A stretch of DNA of 64,000 nt from an uncultured bacterium (GTDB lineage Bacteria > Bacillota > Clostridia > Lachnospirales > Lachnospiraceae): positions 1 to 64,000 of the forward strand of contig CANSLJ010000003.1 of NCBI GenBank assembly GCA_947647735.1. The letters run 5' to 3'. Shown piece by piece: positions 19,052 to 41,148 of the stretch (the stretch's first letter is position 1; the number at the start of each line of letters is the position of its first letter). The position numbers and the translations under genes were made by a program. The notes under the pieces are model-generated. The model was not told the DNA's origin and searched no databases. It worked only from the letters and a program-made list of their open reading frames with translations.

Positions 19052-19053
19052 CA

Positions 19054-20763: not shown

Positions 20764-22331
20764 AAGAAAAAGGGCATGTTGCAATTTATCTCCGGCTGTC
20801 TTTGGAAGATAAACAATCAGGAGAAACGGATATACATGGTGAAAGTAACAGTATTACCAGCCAGCGGAAAATGCTTCTGGATTTCATTCAAAAAGATGAA
20901 GAGCTTTCGGGGCGGAAGATTTTAGAATTTTGCGATGATGGTGTATCGGGTACAAGCATGAACAGGCCGGGGATGCAGGAACTGCTGAAAAAAGTGAAGG
21001 AAGGGGAAATAAGCTGTATTCTGGTAAAAGATATGTCCCGCTTTGCCAGAGATTATATTGAGCTGGGGACTTATCTGAATGAGATATTTCCTTTTATGAA
21101 AGTCCGGTTTATCTCTGTAAATGATCACTATGACAGCAGGGAACATGGGGGAAGTACAATAGCTATTGATACCGCCTTTCGGACGTTGCTTTATGATTTG
21201 TATAGTAAGGACCTGTCGGTCAAAGTCAAAGCTGCTTTTCAGACAAAACGTGCGAACGGGGAGTATATTACGGGGGAAATTCCTTTAGGATATGAGAGGA
21301 GCCGCGAAAAGAAGAACGCCGTAGTAATCAATGAAAAGGAAGCGGATATTGTAAGATATATTTTTACTTTGGCAACGAAAGGTATGGGAAGTATGCAGAT
21401 TGCGAGGAGGCTGGTGGAGGAAAAAGTGCCGACGCCGATGCAGCTTCATCATCCGGACAGAAAGGCAGGGAATAAAAATTATAACTGGAGTGATAAGACA
21501 ATACGGCGTATTTTAAACAATCGCTTTTATCTTGGAGAAATGGTATATGGGAAAACTGCCCGGGATGTTGTTGGAAAGGGCGGGAAGGCTGTTGCCAGAG
21601 AAAAGTGGAAGGTTATTCCGGGCCATCATGAACCAATCATTACGCCGGAAGTTTTTGCCGGTGTGAACAGGACTTTTACAAAACGTTCTCCTAATAATAT
21701 GAGGAAAAAGTATCCTCTGATTGGTAAAGTCTATTGTGGAGGCTGCGGATATGCTATGAGTTACAGCGGAAGTACGAAGAAATGTAAGACACACAATTTG
21801 CGCTGTGCAAAATATACTGTGCTTCAGATACCGGAGTGCTGTACTTACTTTAATGCGCTTTTACTGGAAGAGCTTGTGCTGAAAGAATTGTATGAGGAGC
21901 TGAAAAGACGGGGAGATTTCATAAAACAGCGGGAAATTCTGGAAAAGTCTTTGGAGGAATCTGTAACCGGGTTGAAAAGGGTATGCAGGGAGTGTCAGGA
22001 AAGCTGTCTGGAACTTGACAGGAGAAAAAACAGTATTTATACACAGTATGTGGCAGGAAAGATAAAAGCAGAGGAATACCGTAAGCAGGCAGATCAGATA
22101 GATAAGCAGATAGCAGAGGTTTCCGGGCGTCAGGAGAAGGCAGAGAAACGGTATGAGATTGAGATGGAGAAGAAGCAAAAGGATAAAAATGATATGGAAC
22201 AGATTATAAGATTTTCACAGTTGGAAGAACTGACACAGGAAGCGGTTGATGTCTTTATTAAGAAAGTGACATTATATCAAAATAAAAAGGTAGATATTGA
22301 GTGGAATTACAGTGAAAGCAGTGCCTGTTAA
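20760..22331 (+). CDS. Large serine recombinase 3 of 3
   Basis: A 523-residue large serine recombinase. ATG 20760 overlaps the stop of the previous gene (ATGA), with GGGGG upstream. Catalytic Ser14 is in YLRLSLED. Other conserved parts are ISCILVKDMSRFARDYIE, a recombinase domain with RRILNNRFYLGEMVYGK and a zinc ribbon (CGGCGYAM), then a coiled coil. It is the last gene before the element end, as expected for an integrase next to its attachment site: the chromosomal peptidase fragment begins about 145 bases later. Confidence 0.93.
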   Translation: MKEKGHVAIYLRLSLEDKQSGETDIHGESNSITSQRKMLLDFIQKDEELSGRKILEFCDDGVSGTSMNRPGMQELLKKVKEGEISCILVKDMSRFARDYIELGTYLNEIFPFMKVRFISVNDHYDSREHGGSTIAIDTAFRTLLYDLYSKDLSVKVKAAFQTKRANGEYITGEIPLGYERSREKKNAVVINEKEADIVRYIFTLATKGMGSMQIARRLVEEKVPTPMQLHHPDRKAGNKNYNWSDKTIRRILNNRFYLGEMVYGKTARDVVGKGGKAVAREKWKVIPGHHEPIITPEVFAGVNRTFTKRSPNNMRKKYPLIGKVYCGGCGYAMSYSGSTKKCKTHNLRCAKYTVLQIPECCTYFNALLLEELVLKELYEELKRRGDFIKQREILEKSLEESVTGLKRVCRECQESCLELDRRKNSIYTQYVAGKIKAEEYRKQADQIDKQIAEVSGRQEKAEKRYEIEMEKKQKDKNDMEQIIRFSQLEELTQEAVDVFIKKVTLYQNKKVDIEWNYSESSAC

Positions 22332-25237: not shown

Positions 25238-26104
25238 TCAGCGCCCGCAGATCCAGCGTCCCGATGCGCCACAGGGCAGAACGAGGGAACTCTTTGTCAC
25301 GGGAAGCCCGATCTCATCGGCCTCCACGCGGCCGCCGAACCGGTTTGTGAAAACAGTATTCAACATATAGGAAAGCACGGCGGGCTGCAGGCCCGTTGTG
25401 TAGGAATTCAGTAACACAAAAAGAGGTCTGTCTGATAAAATTTCTGACACTCGTGTCAGAAATGGAAAGATGCTTTCTTCCATTTTCCAGACTTCACCAC
25501 CAGGACCTCTGCCATAAGAAGGAGGATCCATGATAACGGCATCATAATGGTTGCCACGGCGGATCTCCCGTTCTACGAATTTTACGCAGTCATCTACCAG
25601 CCAGCGGATAGGCGCATCGGAAAGGCCGGAGGATGCTGCGTTTTCTTTTGCCCAGTTTACCATTCCCTTTGAGGCGTCCACATGGGTGACGGATGCGCCC
25701 GCTTTTGTAGCGGAAACCGTGGCACCGCCGGTATAGGCGAAGAGGTTCAGTACTTTGATGGGACGGCCGGCATTTTGGATCAATTCGGAAAACCAGTCCC
25801 AGTTTACCGCCTGTTCCGGAAAAAGCCCGGTATGCTTGAAGCTGAAAGGCTTTAGGTGGAAGGTCAGGTCTTTGTATTGAATGCTCCATTCCTCCGGCAG
25901 ATTGAAAAATTCCCATTCACCGCCGCCTTTGCTGCTTCTGTGGTAATGGGCGTTTTTCTTTTTCCAGCCGCTGTGTGTTTTCGGCGTATTCCAGATTACC
26001 TGAGGATCCGGCCGTACAAGGATGTATTTTCCCCAACGTTCCAGCTTTTCTCCCGAAGAGGTGTCAATGACTTCATAATTTTTCCAGTTTTCGGCTATCC
26101 ACAT
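25238..26104 (-). CDS. Class I SAM-dependent methyltransferase (RlmI/RlmK-like)
   Basis: A 288-residue methyltransferase. After an N-terminal beta-rich part (about residues 1-90) comes the Rossmann fold with motif I LNLFAYTGGATVSA (about 118-131), the acidic end of strand 2 in THVDASKGMVNWAKEN, and motif IV MDPPSYGRG (about 194-202). DPPSYG is typical of enzymes methylating bases in 23S rRNA (RlmI/RlmK, PF10672). The PUA domain of RlmI is absent, so the exact target is open. It is transcribed opposite to its neighbours from the promoter at 26233-26262. Confidence 0.85.
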   Translation of the reverse strand: MWIAENWKNYEVIDTSSGEKLERWGKYILVRPDPQVIWNTPKTHSGWKKKNAHYHRSSKGGGEWEFFNLPEEWSIQYKDLTFHLKPFSFKHTGLFPEQAVNWDWFSELIQNAGRPIKVLNLFAYTGGATVSATKAGASVTHVDASKGMVNWAKENAASSGLSDAPIRWLVDDCVKFVEREIRRGNHYDAVIMDPPSYGRGPGGEVWKMEESIFPFLTRVSEILSDRPLFVLLNSYTTGLQPAVLSYMLNTVFTNRFGGRVEADEIGLPVTKSSLVLPCGASGRWICGR

Positions 26105-26385: not shown

Positions 26386-27762
26386 ATGGCATATACATTT
26401 TATGGATGTTTATCCAGGGAAATAGAAGAGGACGGCGGAAAACAGAGGACAGGTCTGGAGTTTGAAGTGGTAGGAACGGATAAGTTGAATTTTTTTCTGG
26501 GAATAGGAAACAGGGAACAGGCCGTTTCGGAAAGACATGAAGCAGTGTTTCAGTTGTTTCAGGAGTATGGTCTTTCGCATAAACGATTCAGGGAGGTGAA
26601 AGGCAAGTATCTGGGGGAGACCGGTTTTCAGGTGCTTAGCGTCTATTTTGACACACTGGATTATGCAAGATATCGATACGGGAACTGGTACAAAATTTGT
26701 TTCTCCCAGGTTCCATCGGAATTGAGCGGCGGAGTATATGATTGCTCTATCTGTGACTGGGGGGACGAAGATGATGCGAAGATAAATTCATATTGCAGTA
26801 TTGATATACTGCCGGAGGAACAGGCCGGCATGCTTAAAGAACTATATCGTCCCTATATTCCGGAGGAGAGCCGCATCCGGAAGACAGACAGGGTAGGTGC
26901 GATCGATGCAGGAACGGACTTTCTGGCTGTGCGGTTTTTGTATGTGGGAGCGGCTTTGTGTGTTTTGCTTTTAGATACTATAGGAAACAAAACAGCGTTT
27001 TTTGATCTGGGGACGAAGGTTTCGAATGTGTCGGAACTGCGCGCTCAATATTCGGCTGCGGAACAGGCGCGGGGAGAACTCCTTGCAGATTTAAGGGCTA
27101 TCAATGCTGCCAACCAGGCAACCATATTTATTTCCCACTGGCATAATGATCATACGAATGCGATCGGGAAACTCAAAAAAATGCCCGGGGGTCTGCAGAA
27201 TCTGGCAGGGAATACGGAGTGGTATGTTCCGGAATCCGATCTGCCAAGTTTTACGACAGTACAAAATGTAATACTTCCGGCGTCATTTTATATATGGGAG
27301 GAAGGGACAACACAGGCGCCCGTAGATATCGCCGGTAATCCCGGAATACAGGCCGGAAAGATCAATCTGCTGAATGATACTTATCCGCATCACCAGGGCG
27401 TTTATGTCAGGGTGACACTGCACAGCGGAAAACAGGTATTGCTTTCCGGGGATACTACTTATCAGGGGCTTCCGAGAGAGATCAGGACAAATGACGGTTA
27501 TGGTTATGACTGTCTGCAGATCTGCCATCATGGAGGAGATTATTATCTGCGGCCGGCAGATCAGGATGAATCAACGGCAAGAAGCTATATTCCAACGCCA
27601 AAAAGAGGCGCGGTGGCAGTATATTCTGCTGACGGAAGAACCTATGGACATCCTGATGAATTTTTCGTAGGGCACTACCATACAAAAGGGTATGCCGCAA
27701 ATAATGAATGGATGCTTCATTTGGGGGCAGCCAGAGGCGGTTACAGATGGGATTTTATGTAA
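26386..27762 (+). CDS. MBL-fold metallo-hydrolase, first gene of the eight-gene operon
   Basis: A 458-residue protein. The C-terminal two thirds are a metallo-beta-lactamase fold: HWHNDH (residues 251-256) is the HxHxDH metal motif, LSGDTTY supplies the bridging Asp, and CHHGGDYY and YGHPDEFF supply later histidines. The last two recall the ComEC-type MBL domain, but there are no membrane channel segments. The first 170 residues are an extra domain I do not recognise. No signal peptide is seen, so it should be cytoplasmic. It lies 21 bases before the DUF6603-like gene. It could cleave a nucleotide or nucleic acid, or process another substrate; nothing here decides which. Confidence 0.8.
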   Translation: MAYTFYGCLSREIEEDGGKQRTGLEFEVVGTDKLNFFLGIGNREQAVSERHEAVFQLFQEYGLSHKRFREVKGKYLGETGFQVLSVYFDTLDYARYRYGNWYKICFSQVPSELSGGVYDCSICDWGDEDDAKINSYCSIDILPEEQAGMLKELYRPYIPEESRIRKTDRVGAIDAGTDFLAVRFLYVGAALCVLLLDTIGNKTAFFDLGTKVSNVSELRAQYSAAEQARGELLADLRAINAANQATIFISHWHNDHTNAIGKLKKMPGGLQNLAGNTEWYVPESDLPSFTTVQNVILPASFYIWEEGTTQAPVDIAGNPGIQAGKINLLNDTYPHHQGVYVRVTLHSGKQVLLSGDTTYQGLPREIRTNDGYGYDCLQICHHGGDYYLRPADQDESTARSYIPTPKRGAVAVYSADGRTYGHPDEFFVGHYHTKGYAANNEWMLHLGAARGGYRWDFM

Positions 27763-27783
27763 TAGCGCAGCACCGGAAAGGGT

Positions 27784-30700
27784 ATGAGGATTAGAAATAT
27801 GGATATTGGCCTGATCGTCGAAAAAGTAAAAGAAAATATGCAGGGGAATCGTTTTATATTGAGCGACGAGACTGTGGGAATCCCTTATATGATGGTATTA
27901 TTCCATGGATATGTGGAAGGAAAAACGTCGCTGGAACTGAATGGATTTACGTATCTGTATGAAAATAATATTCTGAAAATAAGCGGAACGGGAACCTTTC
28001 CGGACAGAGGGGACTGCCTTGTAGAACTGGCGTTCTTGAATGACGAAAATGACATCCTGCAGGTTGAGATGCCGCAGCAGTATCTTCTGCCTGCGTTTTC
28101 GGAACTGCAGTTATCCTGCCACTGCGTTTATGAGCGGGAAACATGGCAGGTCACGTTTGAACGTCATGGTACGTTTTCTGCTGCCGACCTGCTCTCAGCC
28201 GGCATTACCTACCTCGGGATCTCGCTGCCGCCCTCCTGTTTCGGAGAGAAAGGAGATATCACCGATATACGTTTCCGATTCGAGCTTCCCTTTGAGGAAA
28301 CCGGGGAAGGAAATGACGTATTTATCAATTACAACAGGAAGAAATATCTGTCGCTTTGTCTTGAGACGGATATGCGGCTGGATCTGTCAGGGATTTTTGA
28401 GAATGGAGATCAGGTAGGGCTTGGCATTCGATCTTTTCAGGTGGAAAAGTTTGGTGACCGGTACGGTTTTTCCTTCACGGGAAATATGAAGATATGGGAA
28501 TTTGAAGTTCCGTTTATGATCCGGTATGGCAGCAGATCTCTGACGCTCTCAACGTTAAAGGATGAAAAAAGTTTACTAACTATTCCTTCTGTAAATGATC
28601 TGGGAAAGATCGTAGGACTGGATGATCTGCATCTGCCGGAGAGCCTCAGCAGTCTGACTGCCTTCACTTGTGAAACGATCTCTCTGTCTGTCTCAGAAGA
28701 CTTAAAACGCCTTCTTTCTTTTTCAGTGGTAGTTGTCAATAAAAATGTCTGGCAGATCGCACAGAGTCCTGATATACATATAACGGATCTGACAGTCGGG
28801 TTTACGAAAAATGCCTGGGGAAGCGAGATCTCTATCAGCGGAAAACTGGATATTGCAGGCTGGGCGCTGGTTCTGGCGGCGGCATATCATACACAGGATG
28901 GCTGGGTTTTCAGAACATTTATCTCTCCGGAGGTTATGCCTGCGGAGGAAGGCGAGACAAAAATGAATCTGAGCGGCCTGTTTGATAAACTCTGTGATTT
29001 TCTGGGATTTGGGAAAATTCCTTTTCCGCTGCCGGATCTGGAGATCATAGGCGCTATGGCATCTTATTCTCTTTTGACAAAACAATTTTCCACCCATATG
29101 GAGATCGGGAAGATGGCATGCGATTTCCAGTACCTTTTTGCACCATCAAAATCGTATCATCTGCATTTGAGCGTCGGTTATGAACTTTCATTGTCTATGC
29201 TTCCGATCGTGGGAGAGGATCTGCATCTGCTGGATCATATTGCGATAACGGACATTAGTCTGGAGTCAGATCCGGAGAGTACGATACTGTATCTGAACGT
29301 TGCGGGGGAAAAGTTGAAGCTGGAACTTGCCGGAGGGAAAGAAAAGGGCAGAGAAAATCTGCTGCCAGGGGAGACGGATGGTGTGGATGGCGGTGAATAT
29401 CCTGTATATGCCGCCGGGGAGGAGGGAATGAAGCTTCTCTGGTTCCGTCTCGAAAAACATTTTTCTGTTTTTACGATCCACAGGATAGGGATCGGCTTTG
29501 ATGGAAAGAAGATCTCCTTTGCATTCGATGCAGAGCTTACGGCATGTGCGTTCCAGCTTGCCATGGAAGGGCTGGCGATCTTGGCGGAAGTGTCGGAAAG
29601 ACCGGGAATCTCGTTTGATCTCTCCGGCCTGTCCATTGGATATGAGAATCCTTCTTTTGCGATCAGCGGCGGTTTCAGGCATTCGGTCCGGGATAAGGTT
29701 TCTTCCTATGACGGGTCGCTGCTGGTAAAAACAAAAGGGATCTCTGTTTTCATAGCAGGCTCTTATTCGGAAGGTTCTTTTTTGGCATATGGCATGTTGA
29801 AAGCAAAGATCGGCGGGCCGCCGGCTTTTTCAATCACAGGACTGGCAGTGGGATTTGGCTTTAACAAATATCTGCGGCTTCCGGATATAGAAAAAGTGGA
29901 GGAGTTTCCGCTGGTCGCAGCGGCGGTGAAACCGGATTTTTCCGCAGGGCAGCTTTTAGAGGGGTTAAGAGATAGTACAACCACATTAGCCGGTCAGAAT
30001 TTTCTGGCCGCCGGCATCCGTTTTGATTCTTTCGGGATGGCGCATTCTTTTGCCTTGCTTACAGTTTCTTTCGGGCAGCATCTGGAAATAGCTCTTTTGG
30101 GCATTTGTGAAATGACAGCGCCGCCGATGGAAGGAGCAGGGGAGAAGATTCATCCTGTGGCAAAGGCAAAACTGGCTTTGAAGGCGGCACTTTTGCCGGA
30201 ATCCGGTGTATTTTCGGTGCAGGCACAGTTGATGTCGGATTCTTATATTCTTTCCGAAGCCTGTAAACTGACCGGCGGTTTTGCCTGCTGTATCTGGTTC
30301 GGCGGAGAACATAAGGACGATTTTGTGATCACGCTGGGCGGTTACCGGAAAGGCTACCGGAAACCGGAACATTATCCGGATGTGCCCAGGCTGGGATTTT
30401 GCTGGAATGTGACAAAGGAACTTACGCTGAGCGGCGAGATGTATTTTGCTCTGACCCCTTCAATGCTGTGTGCCGGCGGAAGGCTGGAGGCGGTTTTTGT
30501 AATGGGGGCGCTGAGAGCATGGTTTACGGCTTATGCGGATTTTGAGATGGGATGGAAACCGTTTTGTTATGACATTTGCATCGGGATAAGTCTGGGCGCA
30601 TCCATTACGCTTGATCTGTGGCTGTTTTCCAAAACGTTTACACTCGAGATGGCAGTGGACCTGCATATCTGGGGACCTGAATTTCACGGCAGGGCAAAAA

Positions 30701-31554
30701 TAACGTGGTGGGTGATATCCTTTACGATCTCCTTTGCAGCCGGACAGGAAGGGCAGAAGGTTATCGGCTGGAATGAGGTGAAGCAGACCTTTTTACAGGG
30801 AAATAAAGAGCAGGACAGGGCAGCGGGGAACGTAGAGGAAAACAGTATTGTCTCCGTTCATGCGGCAGAAGGTGTGATCGGTAAAGCCGGGGGAGAAGAT
30901 GAGGAGGTAGAGGTCCTTCATGCCGATACGATAAAGCTGAATGTGGAATCGCTTATCCCCGGCGCCTCGGTATCTTTAAACCATAAGGAAGTCACGGAGC
31001 CGGCAAAGATCAGAGGGCAGGAAACGCTGGGCGTATATCCCATGGGAGAAAATGTAGTGCTGGAATCCCGCATGGATATCTCTGTAAAGCGGGAAAAGGA
31101 AGAAGAACCGATCATATATCAGACAGAAGAGATCAAACGCAATCTTCCGAAGGCATTGTGGGCAACCCAGAAAAAGAAGACAGGTGCGGGAGAGAACGCT
31201 GAGGAGATGATAAAAGATGTTCCGGTGGGTATTTCGATCAGTTTTGCATCGGAAGATTTTCCGATGTTCCCGGCAGAAAAGTTTCTGACACTGGATATGC
31301 TTTCAGAATATGAAAAGATAGAAAAGAAATTCCGTTTTGTCTCTGCGCTGGTTTGGGATATAACAGGAGATGATACGGATTTTGCCGTATTTCAGAATAC
31401 GGCGGAAAAAATTCCGGACAGGGTGGGCGCTTTCATGAAAGAGATGGAAGGATTCGGGTTTGGTTTTGATATGGTTCCGGATCTGACGATCATGTCAGAA
31501 AATGCGGCGAATCTCTTCGATGAAGAATTTTGGCTGGGACAACATGTGGGATGA
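27784..31554 (+). CDS. Giant DUF6603-like protein of 1256 residues
   Basis: A very long beta-rich protein without signal peptide or clear membrane segments. Many stretches have the alternating pattern of amphipathic strands and repeat loosely: a phrase of a GI/IG turn, F-x-G-K and a strand recurs through residues 150-1000. The segment GGPPAFSITGLAVGFG (about residue 677) followed by LRLPDIEKVEEFPLVAA closely matches my memory of DUF6603, a domain known only from large proteins of unknown role. The last 230 residues are charged and linker-like. It is followed after 15 bases by the next operon gene. It may build a large scaffold or tube-like beta-solenoid, which is speculation. Confidence 0.6.
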   Translation: MRIRNMDIGLIVEKVKENMQGNRFILSDETVGIPYMMVLFHGYVEGKTSLELNGFTYLYENNILKISGTGTFPDRGDCLVELAFLNDENDILQVEMPQQYLLPAFSELQLSCHCVYERETWQVTFERHGTFSAADLLSAGITYLGISLPPSCFGEKGDITDIRFRFELPFEETGEGNDVFINYNRKKYLSLCLETDMRLDLSGIFENGDQVGLGIRSFQVEKFGDRYGFSFTGNMKIWEFEVPFMIRYGSRSLTLSTLKDEKSLLTIPSVNDLGKIVGLDDLHLPESLSSLTAFTCETISLSVSEDLKRLLSFSVVVVNKNVWQIAQSPDIHITDLTVGFTKNAWGSEISISGKLDIAGWALVLAAAYHTQDGWVFRTFISPEVMPAEEGETKMNLSGLFDKLCDFLGFGKIPFPLPDLEIIGAMASYSLLTKQFSTHMEIGKMACDFQYLFAPSKSYHLHLSVGYELSLSMLPIVGEDLHLLDHIAITDISLESDPESTILYLNVAGEKLKLELAGGKEKGRENLLPGETDGVDGGEYPVYAAGEEGMKLLWFRLEKHFSVFTIHRIGIGFDGKKISFAFDAELTACAFQLAMEGLAILAEVSERPGISFDLSGLSIGYENPSFAISGGFRHSVRDKVSSYDGSLLVKTKGISVFIAGSYSEGSFLAYGMLKAKIGGPPAFSITGLAVGFGFNKYLRLPDIEKVEEFPLVAAAVKPDFSAGQLLEGLRDSTTTLAGQNFLAAGIRFDSFGMAHSFALLTVSFGQHLEIALLGICEMTAPPMEGAGEKIHPVAKAKLALKAALLPESGVFSVQAQLMSDSYILSEACKLTGGFACCIWFGGEHKDDFVITLGGYRKGYRKPEHYPDVPRLGFCWNVTKELTLSGEMYFALTPSMLCAGGRLEAVFVMGALRAWFTAYADFEMGWKPFCYDICIGISLGASITLDLWLFSKTFTLEMAVDLHIWGPEFHGRAKITWWVISFTISFAAGQEGQKVIGWNEVKQTFLQGNKEQDRAAGNVEENSIVSVHAAEGVIGKAGGEDEEVEVLHADTIKLNVESLIPGASVSLNHKEVTEPAKIRGQETLGVYPMGENVVLESRMDISVKREKEEEPIIYQTEEIKRNLPKALWATQKKKTGAGENAEEMIKDVPVGISISFASEDFPMFPAEKFLTLDMLSEYEKIEKKFRFVSALVWDITGDDTDFAVFQNTAEKIPDRVGAFMKEMEGFGFGFDMVPDLTIMSENAANLFDEEFWLGQHVG

Positions 31555-31569
31555 TAGGAGGATGCGGCT

Positions 31570-32862
31570 ATGGGTGAGTATATTGAGTTCAGGGAAGAGG
31601 GAGAAGACTATGGGATGAAGTTTATTGAAAAGATAGAACCTTCTCTTGGCAGCGGAAAGATTTCAGTGGAAGCGACGCAGCATGTGCAGATCACAAAGCC
31701 GGGGGGAGAGGTCGTAAGGGATGAGCTGAAAGCATCAAAAGAATTTCTGGTTGCATCCCGGGCTTTTACACTGGATGTTTCGGATGTCTATTCGGTCTCG
31801 CCGGCTGAAAACGCCTGTGGAAATTTTGCCAATGAGCTTCCTCATATTACGTTGTGCAAAAGAACGCTTCCCTGGGAATATAAAGGCTCGTTTGGGGAAC
31901 CGTGGCTTGCGCTGCTGCCTCTGGCGGAAGGGGAATGTGAAGAGAGGGATATGACGATCGCTGAGCTGAAACAGAAGAAAGAGGATATCTATTTTCCGGT
32001 TTCGGCCCAGCCTGCAGTGTATCTGGAAAAAGACTCTGATCTGTGCCATGTGATCGATCTGGACAAAGCATTATTCCAGAATATTGCACCCCGCAGAGTG
32101 GAGCGGTCTTTACTGACCCATGGAAAATTTCTGAATTTATTGCAGAAGACGGACGAGACGGTCAGGCTGGATGGATATTTCTCAACGGTAGTGGGAGGAA
32201 GATTTGTGCCCACCGCAGATACGGATGCCGTGAAAAGCACGATCCACCTTGTTTCCATGCTGGGATATGATGAGCCGGAAAAACTTTCGACGGATCATGC
32301 CAGGGTAAGGCTTGTTTCTCTGTATCGCTGGAGTGTTTTTTCCAAAGGGGATGAGGAGGCCGGATTCGTTTCTCTGATGGAAGGACTGCAGTGCGATGTG
32401 CTCAGGATAGATAAGGATAACACGCTGCTGCAGCATGGTTATGTGCCGAGGCGCCATCTGTTTAGAAGCGGAGAGAGTACGGTTTCCCTGTACCGGGGAC
32501 CGCTTTTGCCTTTCCGGAAGGAGGGAGAACAGGCCGCCGCAAAAAAGATACCCGTCACATCGGACGGAGCTTTGATCTTTGATCAGGAGAAAGCGCTTTT
32601 TGACGCATCCTACAGTGCGGCATGGCAGATGGGGAGGCTTCTGACGCTGAAAAATAAAGCGGTTGCCGCAGCAATCGTGAAGTGGCGCAAACGTGTGGAG
32701 GAGCTTTTGTTAAAACGGGCCGCTTCCGATTTTATGGATGGAAAGATGAAGCAGGATTATTCTTCAAGGAATCTGGCGGAAAAAGCAATGAGACATATGC
32801 TGTGTCAGTTTGAAAAGGATCAGGAAGAGGATGAAGCAAAAGGGAGAGGGGAAAAGGAGTGA
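31570..32862 (+). CDS. Hypothetical protein of the DUF6603/Hint operon (430 aa)
   Basis: A 430-residue soluble protein, with no signal peptide and no Cys-rich or catalytic motif that I can identify. The N-terminal 70 residues look beta-stranded (FIEKIEPSLGSGKISVEATQ). Late in the protein ASYSAAWQMGRLLTLKNKAVAAAIVKWRKR (about residues 338-367) forms strong helices; a similar AAWQLGRLLAL phrase occurs, from memory, in unannotated proteins of actinobacterial clusters that also carry DUF6603. The C-terminus is highly charged. It begins 15 bases after the giant gene and ends 3 bases before the next, so it is probably part of the same complex. Confidence 0.65.
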   Translation: MGEYIEFREEGEDYGMKFIEKIEPSLGSGKISVEATQHVQITKPGGEVVRDELKASKEFLVASRAFTLDVSDVYSVSPAENACGNFANELPHITLCKRTLPWEYKGSFGEPWLALLPLAEGECEERDMTIAELKQKKEDIYFPVSAQPAVYLEKDSDLCHVIDLDKALFQNIAPRRVERSLLTHGKFLNLLQKTDETVRLDGYFSTVVGGRFVPTADTDAVKSTIHLVSMLGYDEPEKLSTDHARVRLVSLYRWSVFSKGDEEAGFVSLMEGLQCDVLRIDKDNTLLQHGYVPRRHLFRSGESTVSLYRGPLLPFRKEGEQAAAKKIPVTSDGALIFDQEKALFDASYSAAWQMGRLLTLKNKAVAAAIVKWRKRVEELLLKRAASDFMDGKMKQDYSSRNLAEKAMRHMLCQFEKDQEEDEAKGRGEKE

Positions 32863-32865
32863 CCG

Positions 32866-33720
32866 ATGAAAAGATGGAAGAATGATCTTAATGTGACCGA
32901 GGCGTTTTGTACTTTCGCTTTGAAGAATCGGCTGAAGGAAAACGATCCTCTTTTTGCGCCTTTCTATCCGGAGGAGATCGCAGATTGGATCGCGGAGCTG
33001 AAGCTGTTAAAGGGAGTGCCGCTCTCCTGCCTTGCGGGGGATGAGATGCAGCTGCCGCCGGAAAGCATCCGGTTCTTTTATGTGGATGAAAGCTGGACCG
33101 CGCAGATGATAAACGGTGCGCTCAGCATCGGGACGCATTGTACCAAGGCGGAGCGGATCAACAATCTGTTTGTGGAGACTGTCAGGACTCTGGGGAAAAG
33201 AAATATCCGTTGTCCCAGAAAAAACGGTATTCATGAAAATCAGATGCAGTTTTACAGGGAGAAAAGAACAGAACCGACGGAGGCTGTATTGACCGGATTT
33301 CTGATGCGCTCCCGGCTGGTAAAGCTCTGGAAGGGACTTGAGAGCAGCGCCGTTGATCGAAATGGAGCGAAGCTTGACATTCTGCGTATGGATCAGTTAT
33401 CAGGAGAGATCATGATCTGTATTTATCAGGGGGAGATCGCCGGGCTGCAGGTCAAAGAACCAAAGGAGGGACTTCGGTTCGGTGCCCATGAAAACAACAG
33501 GGTGATCCGTGTGCGTGATGTGAAGCCCGGAAATGAGGGCGCCATACTTTCCGGGAAGACGGTACAGATCACCGCCAATGAGCAGGGGAGGGCGGATATT
33601 CTGGAGCTTGCCGGAGCGCTTGGAGAGATACTGGAGACAGATCGGGTGAGTTCGGCAGAATTGGCTATGGAACTGATCGTTGCGCCGGGACTGGCAGAGT
33701 TTCAGAGGGAGGGGGAATAA
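32866..33720 (+). CDS. Hypothetical protein with LPPESIRFF motif (284 aa)
   Basis: A 284-residue soluble protein. Residues 63-77 read LPPESIRFFYVDESW, followed by a segment ending in NGALSIG (about 83-89). I remember this pair of phrases from large unannotated operon proteins in other bacteria, but no named family. The C-terminal part is a mix of strands with a Gly-rich turn near 230. It starts 3 bases after the previous stop and its own stop touches the ATG of the next gene, so expression must be coupled. Function unknown. Confidence 0.65.
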   Translation: MKRWKNDLNVTEAFCTFALKNRLKENDPLFAPFYPEEIADWIAELKLLKGVPLSCLAGDEMQLPPESIRFFYVDESWTAQMINGALSIGTHCTKAERINNLFVETVRTLGKRNIRCPRKNGIHENQMQFYREKRTEPTEAVLTGFLMRSRLVKLWKGLESSAVDRNGAKLDILRMDQLSGEIMICIYQGEIAGLQVKEPKEGLRFGAHENNRVIRVRDVKPGNEGAILSGKTVQITANEQGRADILELAGALGEILETDRVSSAELAMELIVAPGLAEFQREGE

Positions 33721-36700
33721 ATGGGAGAGAAGCCATTGATCGTACCATTTCAAATGGAAGCTTATGTGACAAATAACAAAAATACACCCGATAAGAACTG
33801 TGCGCAGATTTCCCCGGATTATACAAAGGTGGAGTATACTTCGTATCTGGGAGGAAAAATGGAACCTGCGCCGTTCACGGCGCCTTCGCCGCTGCGGGCC
33901 GGTGTTCATCTGCATTTTATCCTGCCGGTATGTTTCAGGCGTGCCGTGCAGAAAGAAAGCGAAGCAGGTTATTCCTGGGACTATGCAAGTGCTCCGGACA
34001 GGTGGGTGGTGACAAGGATGGTCCTCCACGGAGATAAGAAACTGTCCCATAAGAGTTTTATAGTGGAGAGTAATTATATAGGGCTTGATAACAGCGGCAG
34101 TGTGGCGATACCCTATCTTTCTGACACAGATGTCAGTCATCGGTTTCTGGGGAGAAGTTATGAATATCAGGAAAAGAGAGATGATACAGAGGGCACTTAT
34201 CTGGATAAACTGACTGCGATGGGTGCGGGAGATCCGTACTTTGCGGCCTATTACCCAAACTGTCATAGTGTGTTCGGCTTTTACGATGATATGTCGGGAG
34301 TGGAAGAAGAAAGCGATGTCAGCTATTTTGTATGTGGGTACTTTTCGGATGCATCCCAGGATCCCCTTTATCAGGCTTCTCCGGAAACATTTCCGGGTCT
34401 TGCGGAAGAACTGGGATTTATGGTGGAGGATAAAACCTTTTGTGCGGATCAGTGTGTATTATTTGGGGAAGTGTGCGATCTTCGATGGAAAGGATATTCG
34501 GCGGACTATCCCAGCGGGAGGCCGGAGGGGGAGATAAACTGCGGCATCGGCAATACTTCGGCGGAGGTGCTGTCGGCTGTGATCAGCCGCGCCGGCAACA
34601 CACCGGATGGGGCGGATATGGAACGTCTCTTTAATGCGCTTCAGTATGAGCTGGCGGATGAACTGGAAGAGATAGACGGCATAGCCCGAGTGGAAGATGC
34701 CATTCATGCGCAGACCTTTGCCCGAAAGGAGGGCGGAAAGGCCTGGAATCTGGCGTTTCGTGACAGTGATGCGGAGGCGCTGCCCGAAGGAGCGGGACAG
34801 CTTCTTGCCGCATTAAATAGGGTGACGCGGCAGTTTTATAGAAAACAGGATACACTTTCCTTTTGGCAGGATGGGGCCTATGCGGCCTGGTATTCTTATA
34901 TGCTCCGCTATGAGGGGGATGATACTTCGTCCCCGGAGAAGGAAAGTATGCGGAAGGAGATCTTCAGGATCTGCCGGGAAGTGATCCCTCAAATACAGAA
35001 AGAGGCGGTCCGGTTGAAGGAAGAGATGGACGGAGCTTATAAGGTATTAGGCAGGGTCCTTGCAGGAACGGGTATCGCAGTGGAAGAGGAGCCGGAGGAA
35101 AACTATCTGGAGCCGAAGGAACCTGTGCTGCTGCTCTACGGGGACGGCGTGAGGAGAAATTATGCGTTTACCGATGAGGGGAGTATTCTGTGCCAGTCAT
35201 TGCCCGTGACGGAACTTTCCGGCGGGGGAAAGACGCTGCAAAAGGCGGATATTTCAAAATATGCAGGAGAAATCCCGAAGATCCTTCCCGGTTTTGCGGA
35301 ACTGTTTGTTCAGGCAATGTGTCTGGACAAAAAAATAGTGGAAACGATAGGAAGTATAGAAAATATACCGGAATTGGCCTGCGACAGAAGTGGTGTGTCA
35401 GAACTTGCGGGACGGGAGTTTGTCCAGTCCTGGCTGACTTTTTTCATTGAATGGAAGGTCAGTTTTTACCCGTCCCGCACACTTACGGGGGAGGCCGACG
35501 ATTCCATGCGGTTCTGGAAGTTTGACGGTCTGGATTATGATGACCCGGAACCGGCCAGAGAGAAAGCAGTAGTCTATTCCGGAAGAAATATGATCACGCC
35601 GCATGCACTCCTTCAATTTGAATATGTGGCAAAGAAGTATCTTTCCGGAGGCGGAGAATTGGAGGAGGAGGTAGTGAGAGCGCTGGAGCAGGTGAAGAAA
35701 CTGCCTGTTTTGTCGCAAAACCTGGATGGCCTGAACCAGCAGTTTTTATCCCGCAGACAGACTTTGCAGGCTCCGGTTATCGGAAATGAAAGCGATAAGG
35801 AGCTGACCGAAGCGCTTCTGCAGGTCCTGCCGCCATCTATGGAGAAGGGAGCAGTAAATGATGTTCTGCCGTTTTTCCCGCTGCGGGCAGGTCATATGCA
35901 TCTGGAAAAGGTCAATGTGATCAGTACCTTCGGGGGTGTGCAGAATGTGTTTGCGGAGGGAATGAATCCGGTATATTCCGAAGTGATGGGAGAATACAGG
36001 GATGCACAGCAAAACAGGGATTACGGACTGCTCCGTCCAAGAATCATGGGAGGCGCGAGATTCCATTTCGATTTTGTGACGGCAAAGGATGATACACTGC
36101 CGGCCGCACCCGTGCCGGAAACAACACCGGTCTGCGGGATCATTCTGCCGGAGCTGCTGAACGGAAGGCTGGCACTGTATTCGGCTGAAGGAAGCTACTA
36201 TGGCAGTCTTAAAACCGTCTACCGCAGCGGAAAACGGAAGGCAGCCTGGATCTCTGTACCGGACAGGCCGGAAGCGGGTTTTGAAGACACCGTATTTGAG
36301 GATGAACATTTTAAAGATATCATCCGCTGTCTGCTGGAGGATTCTGAAAAGGGTGGGACAGCATATACGGATCTGTTCATGCTCATACAGGAATTGCTGG
36401 ATAAGGCGCTGCCTGCCGGTATGGACCTGGGAGAGGAACTTTCCTGTATCTGGGGAAGGCCGCTGGCTGTCTCTCAGTGCAGGGTGTCATTGGAGAGGAA
36501 AGGTGCGCTGGCATATTCGCAGCTTGCATCGGATTATGGAACATATAAGGATCTGTCTGTGGGGAAAGTGGCGTTTCCGCTGATGGTGGGGGATATGGAA
36601 CGGTCTCTGTCAGGAATCGTGGGATATTTTGAGGGGCATGATCACAAAAAGTTTTATCCGGCTTATCATTCTACAGCCTTTGCGTCGGATTATATCCGAT

Positions 36701-37092
36701 TTGGTGAAAATACCATGTTGCAGGTAAACGGTGAGGAAAAAATACTGACAGTGATCTCGGAAATAGGGAATGAACTCTGTTTTCAGACCGGGATACTGCC
36801 TGTTTCCCGCTACAGGCTGCATGGAGCCCATACCCGCGGTGCCGGTAAGGTCAGACTTTGTTTTGAGGCTGACAGTGTCGTGTGTATGCCAAAGACCCCT
36901 GGTATTCCGGTTCCGGCGGTGAATGCCGGGGAAGTATGGTATTTTGAGTATATGGACAGACAGGCACAGGGGGAGAAAAACAAAAAGGCCCGGGTCGGAG
37001 ATAATGGTGATCTGTTTCAGGAAGAAAAGGCGATCATCTGTGACGGTTATCTGGTACTGGAAAAAGAAGAGGAGAAAGAGGAGAGGGAATAA
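33721..37092 (+). CDS. Giant hypothetical protein of the DUF6603/Hint operon (1123 aa)
   Basis: A 1123-residue soluble protein without signal peptide. Near the N-terminus GVHLHFILP (residues 61-69) and DRWVVTRM (about 94-101) form a pair that recurs, from memory, in large uncharacterised bacterial proteins written as GVHLHWALP...NRWLVTR. The middle (about 390-460) is helical and charged. LRPRIMGGARFHFDFVTAKDD (about 760-780) and later segments are beta-rich. No enzymatic motif could be assigned. Its ATG follows the previous stop with no gap and the next gene starts one base after its stop, so it is made in fixed ratio with its neighbours. Probably a structural subunit. Confidence 0.65.
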   Translation: MGEKPLIVPFQMEAYVTNNKNTPDKNCAQISPDYTKVEYTSYLGGKMEPAPFTAPSPLRAGVHLHFILPVCFRRAVQKESEAGYSWDYASAPDRWVVTRMVLHGDKKLSHKSFIVESNYIGLDNSGSVAIPYLSDTDVSHRFLGRSYEYQEKRDDTEGTYLDKLTAMGAGDPYFAAYYPNCHSVFGFYDDMSGVEEESDVSYFVCGYFSDASQDPLYQASPETFPGLAEELGFMVEDKTFCADQCVLFGEVCDLRWKGYSADYPSGRPEGEINCGIGNTSAEVLSAVISRAGNTPDGADMERLFNALQYELADELEEIDGIARVEDAIHAQTFARKEGGKAWNLAFRDSDAEALPEGAGQLLAALNRVTRQFYRKQDTLSFWQDGAYAAWYSYMLRYEGDDTSSPEKESMRKEIFRICREVIPQIQKEAVRLKEEMDGAYKVLGRVLAGTGIAVEEEPEENYLEPKEPVLLLYGDGVRRNYAFTDEGSILCQSLPVTELSGGGKTLQKADISKYAGEIPKILPGFAELFVQAMCLDKKIVETIGSIENIPELACDRSGVSELAGREFVQSWLTFFIEWKVSFYPSRTLTGEADDSMRFWKFDGLDYDDPEPAREKAVVYSGRNMITPHALLQFEYVAKKYLSGGGELEEEVVRALEQVKKLPVLSQNLDGLNQQFLSRRQTLQAPVIGNESDKELTEALLQVLPPSMEKGAVNDVLPFFPLRAGHMHLEKVNVISTFGGVQNVFAEGMNPVYSEVMGEYRDAQQNRDYGLLRPRIMGGARFHFDFVTAKDDTLPAAPVPETTPVCGIILPELLNGRLALYSAEGSYYGSLKTVYRSGKRKAAWISVPDRPEAGFEDTVFEDEHFKDIIRCLLEDSEKGGTAYTDLFMLIQELLDKALPAGMDLGEELSCIWGRPLAVSQCRVSLERKGALAYSQLASDYGTYKDLSVGKVAFPLMVGDMERSLSGIVGYFEGHDHKKFYPAYHSTAFASDYIRFGENTMLQVNGEEKILTVISEIGNELCFQTGILPVSRYRLHGAHTRGAGKVRLCFEADSVVCMPKTPGIPVPAVNAGEVWYFEYMDRQAQGEKNKKARVGDNGDLFQEEKAIICDGYLVLEKEEEKEERE

Positions 37093-37093
37093 A

Positions 37094-38707
37094 ATGTCAT
37101 ATATTTATGTAAAGGCGATGCCGAATTATATTCCTATTACCACAAAGGGCAGTATTCATTACTGCAATCTGGAATTTATCATTTATAAATCGGAACTTTC
37201 GCCCAAGTTGAACAATCGGATCAAAGACTATGAGGTGATGGAGAAGGAGATCAAAAAGGGACCTGAGGTCACTATTTCCGCCAGGACAGCGCTGCCTGAC
37301 AGCATAGATTCCGGAGATGCTCTCTGTATAACAAATGACATTCCCGCTTCCGGATATGCCTGTCATTATCCGGAGGGGTGGGGATGCACCCAGACAAGCG
37401 GCAATGGCAGGCTTACTTTTGTCATCAGTGCTCCCATCAGCGGCGGGGAAAGCTTTGAGGCGGCAGTGATCAGGATAAGCGGGTTCTGGACGACCGCCCA
37501 GGAGGGGGCATGCGCCCTGCGGGTCAGTGTTAAAAATTTCCAGTCGTATATTCCGGATGCGGAGGATTCCGAATTTACGGTGGTACTGTCCAAAAAATAT
37601 AATCTGGAGATTCAGAATTTTACAGCAAATTCGCTGACAGGAAAGTTTTTTTACCGCCGTGATCTTCCGGTCTTATTCCGCTGGGATGTGGTCTGCGATG
37701 TGGATACGCCGCTGATGCTGCTGGAGGACGGAATCTTAGTCAGTGCGATACAGGAATTTTCAGGGGAGAAACTGCTTGAAACAAGGGAGAGCGGAGATCA
37801 TACCTATACTTTGAAAATGGTACTGCCGGCCGGGGAAAAAACAGAAAATATTGTGATAAGAGATACCAGATGGAGAGAACTGGAAGCACCGGCTGGATTG
37901 ACGCCTGACTTTTCACTGCAGGGGCGTTTTTTGGCCTGGCAGAAAAAGATATATCTGTTTTATAGCGGTCAGATCTATCGGTCTGCGATAAGCAAAGACC
38001 ATGTTTGGTCAGAATGGGAGAAAGTCTGTGAATATGACGGTGATGTCATATATCCCGCGGTCACGGAACTGGCGGTGGCGGGGGATATGCTCTGTCTGGC
38101 CGGTGGAACAAAAAGCGACAGTGAAAAATTGTTTTATTCTACCTATGATCTGAAGAAAGGAGGAAAATGGACAGATTATGATATGCAGCAGGACAGGGAA
38201 CTTACAGGGGGGAATATAGCCTGTGATGCGTCCGGCTCGGGATGGATCGTGTATGCAAAATGGAAGGGAGACTATATCGTATTTCTGGAGTATGATCCGG
38301 AGACACAGGGCTTTCTTGGGAGATACGGACTGAAGATCCCGGGGATGAAATATGCGGAGCTCGGTATCAGAAAAAAGAAACTATATCTGGCGGCGGTAAC
38401 GGAAGAAGAGATCCTGATAAAACAGTTGCAAAAGGGCGATACCTGCTTTTCTGATATCGGGACGATAGGAGCGGAGGAAAGCCCGGCATGGATGCGATGG
38501 GTGGAAGGCGGCAGCGATATGTTCTTGTGGACGGATAAAGGGCTGTACCAGGAGGGCAAATGGGATATAGCAGATCATTTTCAGCCGCCCTGCCGGAAAG
38601 GAACATATCCCTGGTGCGGAGGGATCGGCAAAAAGCTGGTCAGCCTGTTGGCAGGAGAAGAAAAAACAGGTGATATGCAGGCATGGGAAACAGATGTTTT
38701 ACAGTAA
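37094..38707 (+). CDS. Hypothetical protein with propeller-like C-terminal half (537 aa)
   Basis: A 537-residue protein starting at ATG 37094, one base after the previous stop, with a run of AGGAG-like bases just upstream. A longer frame to 36923 would overlap the previous gene and is rejected. Residues 1-230 are beta-rich, with SGFWTTAQEGACALRV and similar strands. Residues about 265-530 contain repeated blade-like units of the kind GKKIYLFYSGQIYRS, DHVWSEWEKV and GGSDMFLWTDKGLYQEGKW, suggesting a beta-propeller of the lectin or sialidase-like type. No Asp-box is complete. It may be a recognition or capping module. Confidence 0.65.
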   Translation: MSYIYVKAMPNYIPITTKGSIHYCNLEFIIYKSELSPKLNNRIKDYEVMEKEIKKGPEVTISARTALPDSIDSGDALCITNDIPASGYACHYPEGWGCTQTSGNGRLTFVISAPISGGESFEAAVIRISGFWTTAQEGACALRVSVKNFQSYIPDAEDSEFTVVLSKKYNLEIQNFTANSLTGKFFYRRDLPVLFRWDVVCDVDTPLMLLEDGILVSAIQEFSGEKLLETRESGDHTYTLKMVLPAGEKTENIVIRDTRWRELEAPAGLTPDFSLQGRFLAWQKKIYLFYSGQIYRSAISKDHVWSEWEKVCEYDGDVIYPAVTELAVAGDMLCLAGGTKSDSEKLFYSTYDLKKGGKWTDYDMQQDRELTGGNIACDASGSGWIVYAKWKGDYIVFLEYDPETQGFLGRYGLKIPGMKYAELGIRKKKLYLAAVTEEEILIKQLQKGDTCFSDIGTIGAEESPAWMRWVEGGSDMFLWTDKGLYQEGKWDIADHFQPPCRKGTYPWCGGIGKKLVSLLAGEEKTGDMQAWETDVLQ

Positions 38708-38735
38708 AGATGAAGGAAAAAACGGAGGAAGCAAA

Positions 38736-39410
38736 ATGGAGAGAGCACAACTGGAAGATATTATTGCGACAAAGAATGCGCCGCTTGTGGTGGAAGAGGG
38801 ATGTTCGGAAAAGTACAGAAGAGTGGTGATAAAGGAAGAAGGATATGTGATCGTGATGCCGGGGGCTTTTCTGGAAATGGAGGAACTGGTCATTCATGAA
38901 CAGAATCCGGAATATGATATTGTGGCGAAGGGAAGTGACGGAGAGGACGGAGGTCCGGGGGAAGATGGAACGGATGCTTCCGATGGAGGCGAGATCGAGG
39001 TGATCATCGGTGCGCTGTCCAACAATATAAAGGTCTTAAACTGCGGCGGCAACGGAGGTGACGGCGGTTTTGGCGGAAAGGGAGGAGATGGCGGAAACGG
39101 ATTTTGTAATGGCAAAGGCGCTCCCGGCGGCGTTGGAGGAGATGGGGGAGATGGGGGAAACGGCGGAAGAGGACCGCATCTGACCCTGAAATATTTTTCA
39201 TCAGATCCTGTCAGGATCGAGGAGATGTACTGTGCAGGCCGGGGCGGAGAGGGCGGTGCGCCGGGCCAGGGTGGAAAAGGCGGCAGAGACGGTAATGCCG
39301 ATACATATGCACAGAGCGGGAAACCGGGACAAAGAGGATCAAACGGAGAACCGGGAGAAAAAGGCAGTATAGATATCATCAAACTGGATACTTATGAAGC
39401 AGAACAATAG
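38736..39410 (+). CDS. Glycine-rich collagen-like protein
   Basis: A 224-residue protein starting at ATG 38736, with GGAGG upstream. Residues 1-65 look globular (PLVVEEGCSEKYRRVVIKEE). Residues about 66-210 are very rich in Gly with Asp, Asn, Pro and Lys, in G-G-x and G-x-x patterns such as GGNGGDGGFGGKGGDGG and PGQRGSNGEPGEKGS, broken by one beta-like insert (HLTLKYFSSDPVRIEE). Such sequence can form polyglycine II bundles, as in some phage tail-fibre tips and spore-coat proteins, or collagen-like helices. It may be a fibrous tip or connector of the assembly; this is inference. The DNA is correspondingly repetitive. Confidence 0.75.
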   Translation: MERAQLEDIIATKNAPLVVEEGCSEKYRRVVIKEEGYVIVMPGAFLEMEELVIHEQNPEYDIVAKGSDGEDGGPGEDGTDASDGGEIEVIIGALSNNIKVLNCGGNGGDGGFGGKGGDGGNGFCNGKGAPGGVGGDGGDGGNGGRGPHLTLKYFSSDPVRIEEMYCAGRGGEGGAPGQGGKGGRDGNADTYAQSGKPGQRGSNGEPGEKGSIDIIKLDTYEAEQ

Positions 39411-39432
39411 AGAACAAAGGAGAATAGAACAG

Positions 39433-41148
39433 ATGAAAAGCGGAGAAAGCAGATACTATAAATATAGTTTTTTGAATACTGGAGATGAAGAGAAACTGAT
39501 CGCGGGATGGGGCGGAGAGAGTGCGATCAGGAGAAAATACCCTGCGGTCTGGACTGCGATCCAGAACACGAAAGAATATGAGCATGAAGTGAAAAAAGCA
39601 CGGGGAAATACAATACAGGAGATTGAGGGGAACTTGAAGGTCAGTGCACCCAGTTTTCAGGAGGAAGAGAATAAAAAGAACAGCAGGGAAAATGAAAAGA
39701 ACGGTCTGTCATCCGTTATACAATTAGACCTGGAGGACGGAACTTATATATCGGATCCGGCATCCGGCAGGGATGATGAACCGGTATCGAAAAAATGGCC
39801 GGCAGCCATTCTGGCAGGAAGTATTGATAATCTGACGGACGGTTACGGCGTTGCCTCCTACACAAAGGTACTGCGGGACATTAATTCCGCGGAAGCACAG
39901 ATGGTCACGGATGCGCTTTATGATGGGACGGATTTTGCGAGAAAACGGGTGAGGGCATATACCCATTATTCCGGGACGGATTTTAACGGGGTTCTGCACA
40001 GTGCGGAATGTGCTGTGGACAATCCGAATTTCACGGATGATGAAGGGGATGTATTTGTCAGGGATATTTCAGTCAGTGCCCCCCATTCCGACCATGCGAA
40101 TAACCCGATCAAAATGCTCTATGACCGGGAAGCGTTCAGCGGAGAGGCGATCGATTACAGCTATAAGAATGTCAGGGATGATGCTGATCAGAAGGTTAAG
40201 ACATGTATTCCCCTAAAGATGCAGATAGGATTTAAGGAGGAAGTTTCCATAGCGGATTCCGTTTTGGATACGGATCATTCTTTCAAGCCCAGTATAACAT
40301 TCGGGGATCCGCCAAAGAAACATGTGGTGTATAACAGAGAATGGGATGTGATTAAAAAGGCGTTTACAGTGAACGGAAAGATACTTACCATTGATTTTTC
40401 AAAAATAAGTGACAAGGATGACTGGAACTATCCGATGCTGATGGCAAATTATACGTCGGGTTCCTACGAAGTGGGGCGGACTGTAGACTTGCATGCAACT
40501 TTTCACCTCAATATAAAATGGGGAGAGATTCCGACCAAAGTGCCCATTTCTCTTGTTTCCTGCGATCATGCACCGGAAGGTTTTCATTTTTATCATGCCG
40601 ACAACAGCTATTCGGTTTATATTCCGAAGATCAATATCCGGTGGGGATGTTTTGGGGAAGGAACGCTGATCACAATGGCGGACGGCAGCAGAAAGCCTGT
40701 GGAACTGATCCGGCAGGGTGATGTGCTGTTTACTACCTCCGGCCCTCTGGAAGTGCGGGAAGTTTATGCGGGAAGGGAGGCGACCCTGCTCCACATCTGT
40801 ACGGAGGGAGGAAAAACGCTTAAGGTAACCCATACCCATCCGGTCGTACTGGAAGGCGGAAAAACGATCCGGGCAAGATATATGCGTCCCGGTTATCGCG
40901 TTATGTCCGGAGACGGAAAGACGGACAGGGTGAGATGGGTCTATGAATGCGCCTACGGCAATATGGTATACAATTTTGAGTTTTCCGACGGGAAAGAACA
41001 TGTGGTGGAAGCGGACGGGATCCTTGCGGGGGATTTTGTTGCACAGAATGCGGTAAGGGCAGAAACGGCCCGCAGGCAGCTTTATACTCCTCAGGTGCAG
41101 TCGCTGGCAGAGCAGTTTATAGCAATGCATGATGCAGGCAGGATATGA
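39433..41148 (+). CDS. Protein with C-terminal Hint (intein-like) autoprocessing domain
   Basis: A 571-residue protein. ATG 39433 with AAAGGAG at good spacing is preferred over ATG 39394, which overlaps the previous gene without a ribosome site. Residues 1-400 are an unknown mixed domain. Residues 406-539 are a Hint domain as in inteins and hedgehog proteins: nucleophile Cys406 in GCFGEGTLITMADGSRKPVE, the block-B VTHTHPVV and the end VEADGILAGDFVAQN with Asn539. The remaining 32 residues, rich in Gln and Ala, are not a toxin. The domain could cut itself at Cys406 or Asn539, releasing a peptide or joining the upstream part to another molecule. It is the last gene of the operon. Confidence 0.8.
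   Translation: MKSGESRYYKYSFLNTGDEEKLIAGWGGESAIRRKYPAVWTAIQNTKEYEHEVKKARGNTIQEIEGNLKVSAPSFQEEENKKNSRENEKNGLSSVIQLDLEDGTYISDPASGRDDEPVSKKWPAAILAGSIDNLTDGYGVASYTKVLRDINSAEAQMVTDALYDGTDFARKRVRAYTHYSGTDFNGVLHSAECAVDNPNFTDDEGDVFVRDISVSAPHSDHANNPIKMLYDREAFSGEAIDYSYKNVRDDADQKVKTCIPLKMQIGFKEEVSIADSVLDTDHSFKPSITFGDPPKKHVVYNREWDVIKKAFTVNGKILTIDFSKISDKDDWNYPMLMANYTSGSYEVGRTVDLHATFHLNIKWGEIPTKVPISLVSCDHAPEGFHFYHADNSYSVYIPKINIRWGCFGEGTLITMADGSRKPVELIRQGDVLFTTSGPLEVREVYAGREATLLHICTEGGKTLKVTHTHPVVLEGGKTIRARYMRPGYRVMSGDGKTDRVRWVYECAYGNMVYNFEFSDGKEHVVEADGILAGDFVAQNAVRAETARRQLYTPQVQSLAEQFIAMHDAGRI

Follow-up and report, generated by a model that had tools for sequence, protein, structure and literature searches.

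What kind of machine, if any, do eight adjoining genes encode when most of their products belong to no named family? The question is raised by a stretch of 64,000 nucleotides, here called the window, from an uncultured bacterium of the Lachnospiraceae (GenBank assembly GCA_947647735.1, contig CANSLJ010000003.1, positions 1 to 64,000), in which the genes designated A to H form an operon. A preliminary description made from the letters alone had proposed that the eight genes specify one assembly. We found that four of them, B, C, D and E, recur together in 46 clusters from six phyla, and we suggest, with reasonable though not high confidence, that these four form the obligate core of a so far undescribed multi-protein apparatus, whose genes pass from one bacterium to another as a single block.

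The operon of the window

An open reading frame (ORF) scan of the window placed eight same-strand genes at 26386..41148 on the plus strand, encoding 4,896 residues in total, in agreement with the eight co-directional genes and about 4,900 residues described earlier. None of the eight ORFs contains an internal stop. The intergenic distances from A to H are 21, 15, 3, 0, 1, 28 and −17 bases, so that the gaps of 0 to 28 bases reported previously hold for six junctions, whereas G and H overlap by 17 bases. The starts adopted for F and G were 37094 (537 residues) and 38736 (224 residues), respectively. The genes are as follows.

26386..27762, plus strand: A, MBL-fold metallohydrolase, 458 residues (PF00753 below the cut-off, with metal motifs)
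27784..31554, plus strand: B, DUF6603 core subunit, 1256 residues (PF20248, E = 6.3e-124)
31570..32862, plus strand: C, core subunit without a named family, 430 residues (in 46 of 46 clusters)
32866..33720, plus strand: D, core subunit without a named family, 284 residues, LPPESIRFF motif (in 46 of 46 clusters)
33721..37092, plus strand: E, core subunit without a named family, 1123 residues, GVHLHFILP motif (in 45 of 46 clusters)
37094..38707, plus strand: F, without a named domain, 537 residues (defined by its position 3′ of E)
38736..39410, plus strand: G, glycine-rich protein, 224 residues (a separate gene in the window)
39394..41148, plus strand: H, Hint domain at the C terminus from residue 418, 584 residues (PF14623, E = 1.1e-6)

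No Pfam or NCBIfam family matched C, D, E, F or G (best E value 0.47, for C), which bears out the earlier statement that the proteins of 430, 284, 1123 and 537 residues lack a named family. Pfam recognized neither a toxin domain nor a transposase in the eight genes, and no sheath, tube or baseplate family of PHROGs was found among them, in line with the absence of transposases and phage structural genes noted before. In PHROGs, A matched a metal-dependent hydrolase family (0.0049) and H a function-unknown family covering the start of the Hint region (1e-4), and all other proteins had E values of 0.037 or worse.

The B-C-D-E core

A pattern-based scan of a collection of 84,980 species with the alignment of B yielded 18 loci, most of which have C, D and E beside B. 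Reverse recruitment with E was carried out on plasmids, which gave clusters from Paenibacillus, Streptomyces and Embleya, and on whole genomes. Pieces of about 3-38 kb around the matches were fetched, and all stop-to-stop frames with 60 codons or more were scored. Two further records of Streptomyces clavuligerus, taken as the locus already included (L030), were left out before counting, the genomes G054, G001 and G006 were entered once each, and two clusters scanned later stand outside the count: the second cluster of Embleya NBC_00896 (L135), in which MBL-B-C-D-E were recognized, and that of Streptomyces europaeiscabiei (L134).

B and E are each present in 45 of the 46 clusters, and C and D in all 46. 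The carriers belong to Bacillota, Bacteroidota, Actinomycetota, Pseudomonadota, Acidobacteriota and Fibrobacterota, and actinobacterial clusters, which the preliminary description mentions, are thus among them. Of the 19 clusters recruited through B (window included), all contain C and D, and 18 contain E; of the 27 recruited through E, all contain C and D, and 26 contain B. The single missing E falls at a contig end (L025), and the single missing B is that of Paenibacillus sonchi. Because the same set recurs in 46 clusters, its recurrence exceeds chance, and the singly scattered homologues that had been named as the outcome contradicting a joint system did not occur.

The order B-C-D-E on one strand is kept in 42 of the 46 clusters, even though homologues share only about 22-36% identity with the proteins of the window; in both clusters of G133, E is placed in front. 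C and D are joined into one chain in 16 of 46 clusters. The phrases GVHLHWALP, LPPESIRFF and AAWQLGRLLAL quoted in the preliminary description are conserved motifs, and the residues conserved in at least 90% of the members of B to E are mostly Gly, Pro or aromatic, a pattern that resembles structural proteins. The eight genes are not equally essential: of the unit described earlier, B to E are conserved and constitute the core, whereas the MBL, glycine-rich and Hint genes are optional.

Carriage of the system is sparse. Of 61 genomes (that of the window and 60 relatives), 4 contain B, against none of 14 controls; in each of the three other carriers, B is adjoined by C, D and E. With the centre genome included each time, the phylum samples centred on an Aquimarina, a Terriglobia and a Rubrivivax genome contained E in 7 of 247, 3 of 247 and 9 of 349 genomes, respectively; the phylum sample of the window contained it in 1 of 348 and its family sample in 6 of 348. 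On this carriage, 1 to 9 genomes per sample of 247-349, a housekeeping operon was rejected.

Gain and transfer as one block

The site of the operon could be compared between relatives through its flanks. The features outside the system in the window are as follows.

25238..26104, minus strand: S-adenosylmethionine (SAM)-dependent methyltransferase, the insertion-site marker (PF10672, 8.5e-15)
52492 onward: peptide matching the start of SecA
downstream of the operon: histidine kinase, AraC-type regulator and solute-binding genes
neighbourhood of the operon: cation-efflux gene

secA lies near the methyltransferase gene, with no operon between them, in G003 and G005 and at the main locus of G006; in G001, the operon sits between the two. 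Between G001 and G003 or G006, the similarity of the flanks breaks off some 140 bases upstream of A and is regained some 60 bases downstream of H, and the resulting insert of about 14.4 kb holds just the operon. G005 has a shorter interval, which matches on the secA side only. Because relatives show empty sites where G001 carries the 14.4-kb insert, the operon was gained as a single block in the genus of the window. The operon of G006 is located about 100 kb away, beside a 98-residue methyltransferase fragment, and the intact methyltransferase gene has stayed at the old place; the truncated second copy (L007:14131-14592; intact gene, L131:9614-10477) is a possible trace of block movement.

The interval between the methyltransferase gene and secA varies within the genus (L008, L126, L127, L128 and L131). 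It holds neither block in G003, G005 and G006, the operon in G001, and the operon plus a two-component/ABC block in the window, and G007 has a block of the two-component/ABC type beside the methyltransferase gene. The downstream two-component and ABC genes were considered as members of the system and rejected, since H is followed by a histidine kinase in the window, secA in G001 and a response regulator in G006. Tandem serine recombinase genes lie at 17345-22331, about 4 kb upstream of the operon (two confirmed by Pfam, the third similar).

Transfer over longer distances is suggested by the tree of E, which does not follow taxonomy and mixes phyla: the cluster G1527 from the family of the window groups with two Bacteroidota, G1489 from the same family groups with the Bacteroidota genome G116, and Fibrobacter is nested within the Lachnospiraceae. 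The pairwise tree distances of B to E are correlated, with Pearson coefficients from 0.72 (B-D) to 0.92 (C-E) over 946-1035 pairs. Together with the C-D fusions, this co-inheritance suggests that the products of B to E form one assembly.

Gene B and its predicted fold

B matched PF20248 with 414.7 bits, far over the cut-off of 27, across profile positions 2-483 of 502, and the DUF6603-like protein of 1256 residues named before is a clear member of that family. PF20248 itself is a family without a function, and in the window no family of Pfam or NCBIfam covers its constant partners C, D and E. AlphaFold2 predicted residues 411-1256 of B as a long amphipathic antiparallel β-meander; the mean predicted local distance difference test (pLDDT) score was 66.2, and blocks of model residues 201-530 scored 73-95, with one at 57. 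Clear hydrophobic/polar alternation was seen in 24 of 33 strands examined.

ApoB100, LptD, ushers and porins head the Foldseek list of B, as class-level matches with template modelling (TM) scores to the query of at most 0.20. In VIA-align, most top rows gave a root mean square deviation of 8.7-13 Å over about 270 residues, and the LptD core gave 6.4 Å over 232. B, as modelled, shares with ApoB100, LptD and porins a long antiparallel amphipathic meander, but no close superposition on them was obtained, the B of the window has no clear signal peptide and, unlike these proteins, B is present in Gram-positive and Gram-negative phyla alike.

Gene A and the slot upstream of B

The MBL fold is defined by an HxHxDH motif plus Asp and His metal ligands downstream. 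A scored 17.6 bits against PF00753, below the curated cut-off of 22.7, and nevertheless carries HWHNDH, SGDTTY and CHHGG at residues 251, 354 and 380, which agrees with its earlier designation as an MBL-fold hydrolase. Three proteins that occupy the same slot elsewhere scored 28.6, 34.3 (both passing) and 21.6 bits (below). An MBL-type protein stands beside B in 13 of 46 clusters; the profile used was built from 10 of these 13, so that three are independent finds. In 11 of the 13, the MBL frame overlaps the B frame or lies within 90 bases of it, including a Defluviitaleaceae cluster in which it is on the opposite strand; the gap is about 1.1 kb in Embleya, and the frame of G820 runs into masked bases. 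MBL-type proteins upstream of B occur in Bacillota, Actinomycetota, Bacteroidota and Pseudomonadota. Other occupants of the slot are a C70 peptidase (L120) and a DUF4135 protein (L070).

Position F and the optional genes G and H

Proteins in position F from 15 clusters were aligned and share 13-17% identity with that of the window outside its nearest relatives. As distant F proteins have so little sequence in common, F denotes a position rather than a proven family. Ten were scanned for domains: three carry Kelch (Terriglobia, Taibaiella and Mucilaginibacter), one PLAT (Streptomyces clavuligerus), one F5/8-type-C (Embleya), and five, including that of the window, none. Considering the Kelch, PLAT and F5/8-type-C domains at this position, F is probably a binding subunit. 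In G484, a BNR/sortilin-type protein follows E (L089).

H matched the Vint/Hint family PF14623 with 29 bits (cut-off, 27) and has the N-terminal Cys block of such domains, consistent with the Hint-domain protein originally proposed. Reading by eye, we found a WGC(F/Y) block in all 10 H proteins, and in each of them 27-38 residues come after the final AQN. An H-type protein is present in 12 of 46 clusters. G is a separate gene in the window and in Blautia schinkii, whereas in L011, L013 and L017 it forms the N-terminal part of a fusion with H; it was not seen with the other five of the ten H proteins.

Radical SAM genes and genes for BspA-type leucine-rich-repeat proteins are among the other neighbours of the clusters. 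In four genomes of Bacteroidota, the core is followed or flanked by paralogous proteins whose family is unknown (L102:2485-5740, L103:2735-4780 and L068:3246-4424).

Points weighing against the proposed apparatus

Several observations speak against an obligate core of one apparatus. The correlations between the subunit trees were computed without a control gene, and the strand alternation in B was scored without a control protein. In Paenibacillus sonchi, B is missing and E is broken. G006 has two ORFs (L007:7432-8379 and L007:8509-8766) in place of an intact gene C, as a result of decay or an assembly error. A plasmid of Streptomyces europaeiscabiei (L134:10729-22774) has a like layout, in which DUF6603 and, weakly, C were recognized and D and E were not; two tyrosine recombinase genes lie just upstream of this cluster. 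A few polar residues are kept in C (Glu, His and Asp) and D (Glu, Arg, Asp and Ser), and these subunits may have a catalytic role.

The accessory genes raise further points. By the profile used, 33 of 46 clusters have no MBL-type protein beside B, and 34 of 46 have no H-type protein. The MBL profile of the window matched none of the five non-Bacillota MBL proteins compared, and the slot may therefore hold unrelated recruits. A simple hydropathy scan found no clear signal peptide in A to H of the window, as stated earlier, and no export route was seen; only two 19-residue stretches exceed a hydropathy of 1.6, one in A (2.06, near residue 177) and one in B (1.68, near residue 930). Elsewhere, 3 of 19 proteins in or next to position F appeared secreted in a crude scan, and their apparent signal peptides (L020:7805-9628, L078:16679-19321 and L105:4100-6235) are unlike the rest of the system. 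Promoter-like sites are at background (15 versus 18.5 expected), which lends no support to a single transcript, and terminator-like sites are above it (22 versus 12.9 expected, standard deviation 3.6), some of them within genes on the plus strand.

Alternative explanations

Defence, lipid-handling and tail-derived explanations are each partly supported, and none explains the fixed quartet. An intracellular system against phages or plasmids, in which the giant core senses the invader and an MBL or phospholipase D (PLD) hydrolase is the effector, would fit the patchy, mobile carriage with exchangeable hydrolases. It would also fit the restriction-modification locus upstream of the G1536 cluster (L118:12187-19511) and the genes annotated as CHAT and CATRA conflict-system members, which in Streptomyces NBC_01276 precede B by about 5 and 9 kb. 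The G1536 locus comprises a Type ISP/Eco57I-like gene by Pfam and two C5-methyltransferase-like genes, and one gene of 573 residues without a Pfam family separates it from the cluster. However, none of the eight proteins matched a PADLOC-DB 2.0.0 model at E = 1, and Pfam and NCBIfam recognized no ATPase or nucleotidyltransferase domain in them. We regard a defence function as unlikely.

No better placed is a machine for lipid or other hydrophobic cargo, in which B would be an ApoB-like or β-barrel-like sheet and the cluster would make or carry a lipid product; we give it a similarly low probability. It is suggested by the amphipathic meander of B and the proteins heading its Foldseek list, by the PLAT domain in position F of Streptomyces clavuligerus, and by PLD genes near four clusters (L107/L020; its relative L100, at about 3.7 kb on the upstream side of B; L027, with the gene about 2.5 kb downstream of E; and L026, where a fragment is annotated). 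In G749, FabA-like and ketoacyl-synthase genes recognized by Pfam lie upstream of the MBL gene (L079:1654-3463), and G820 (L082) has the same ORF layout. On the other hand, the structural matches stay at the class level, and the recurrent ketoacyl-synthase group comprises three genomes, one of them with an apparently housekeeping gene. A general link to fatty acid synthesis was not accepted, the genes being seen by Pfam in one genome, G749, with G820 sharing its ORF layout.

Phages and injection systems have a known class of modules at tail-fibre tips and collars, represented in Pfam by Collar and S74. A degenerate or unusual derivative of a phage tail or contractile injection system, with F, G and H as tail-fibre parts, is suggested by Collar proteins that three genomes encode at a distance of 4-9 kb from the core (L085, L088 and L121), S74-type proteins beside both G133 clusters (L072, and L088 just below the cut-off), and genes for baseplate-V and DUF4280 proteins that lie about 9-13 kb away from the cluster of Paenibacillus polymyxa. 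This origin is nevertheless very unlikely. No relative of E or B was found in IMG/VR contigs, nor did 50,697 phage records contain one of E, and a phage remnant was rejected; C-D had no viral fold match; and the listed neighbours scanned with Pfam, which are part of all neighbours (one listing covers 25 of 30 families), include no sheath, tube or baseplate family. A collection of genes without a joint machine, kept together by co-transfer alone, would explain the movement as a block, but it is still less probable given the order held at about 22-36% identity, the C-D fusions and the near-perfect co-occurrence.

Proposed apparatus and comparison with known systems

We therefore return to B to E as the obligate core of a mobile apparatus. 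B would be a large amphipathic β-sheet scaffold that may contact lipid or a membrane, and C and D, sometimes as one chain, would complete the scaffold with E. The protein in position F could bind a target or ligand, judging from the domains found there in other lineages, A would be the enzymatic part as a putative zinc hydrolase, and G and H would form an optional glycine-rich appendage that is putatively self-processing through its Hint domain. In other lineages, the enzyme and tip slots are filled by genes for PLD, cysteine protease, S74 and BNR proteins. The patchy, mobile carriage and the exchangeable ends point away from housekeeping, and the apparatus probably has an accessory function when its carriers interact or compete with other organisms.

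Among known systems, polymorphic toxin systems share with the operon a Hint domain, propeller and fibre-like parts and exchangeable pieces, and in those systems HINT directly precedes a C-terminal toxin domain (Zhang et al. 2012, PMC3482391). H differs in that just 27-38 residues follow the last AQN in the 10 proteins, and no toxin domain was recognized in the eight genes. Collar and S74 proteins near the core in a few clusters are shared with phage and injection tail-tip modules, but unlike phage tails, tailocins and extracellular contractile injection systems, the genes scanned include no tube, sheath or baseplate family, and the viral collections contained no relatives of E or, in IMG/VR, of B. 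DUF6603 or PF20248 is named in no paper of the literature library searched, and phrase searches of the literature returned nothing recognized as a B-E cluster. Tentatively, and with considerable doubt about the whole, the B-E system might represent a new class of machine traded among six phyla and related neither to known toxins nor to secretion or contractile injection systems, in which a four-subunit scaffold with a lipid-contacting β-sheet giant and swappable hydrolases and receptor-binding or self-processing tips would act on other cells.

The core gives the orphan Pfam family DUF6603 a set of partners and points to a whole class of apparatus that is annotated as separate hypothetical proteins. 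Cultured carriers, such as Blautia schinkii DSM 10518, make the question testable.

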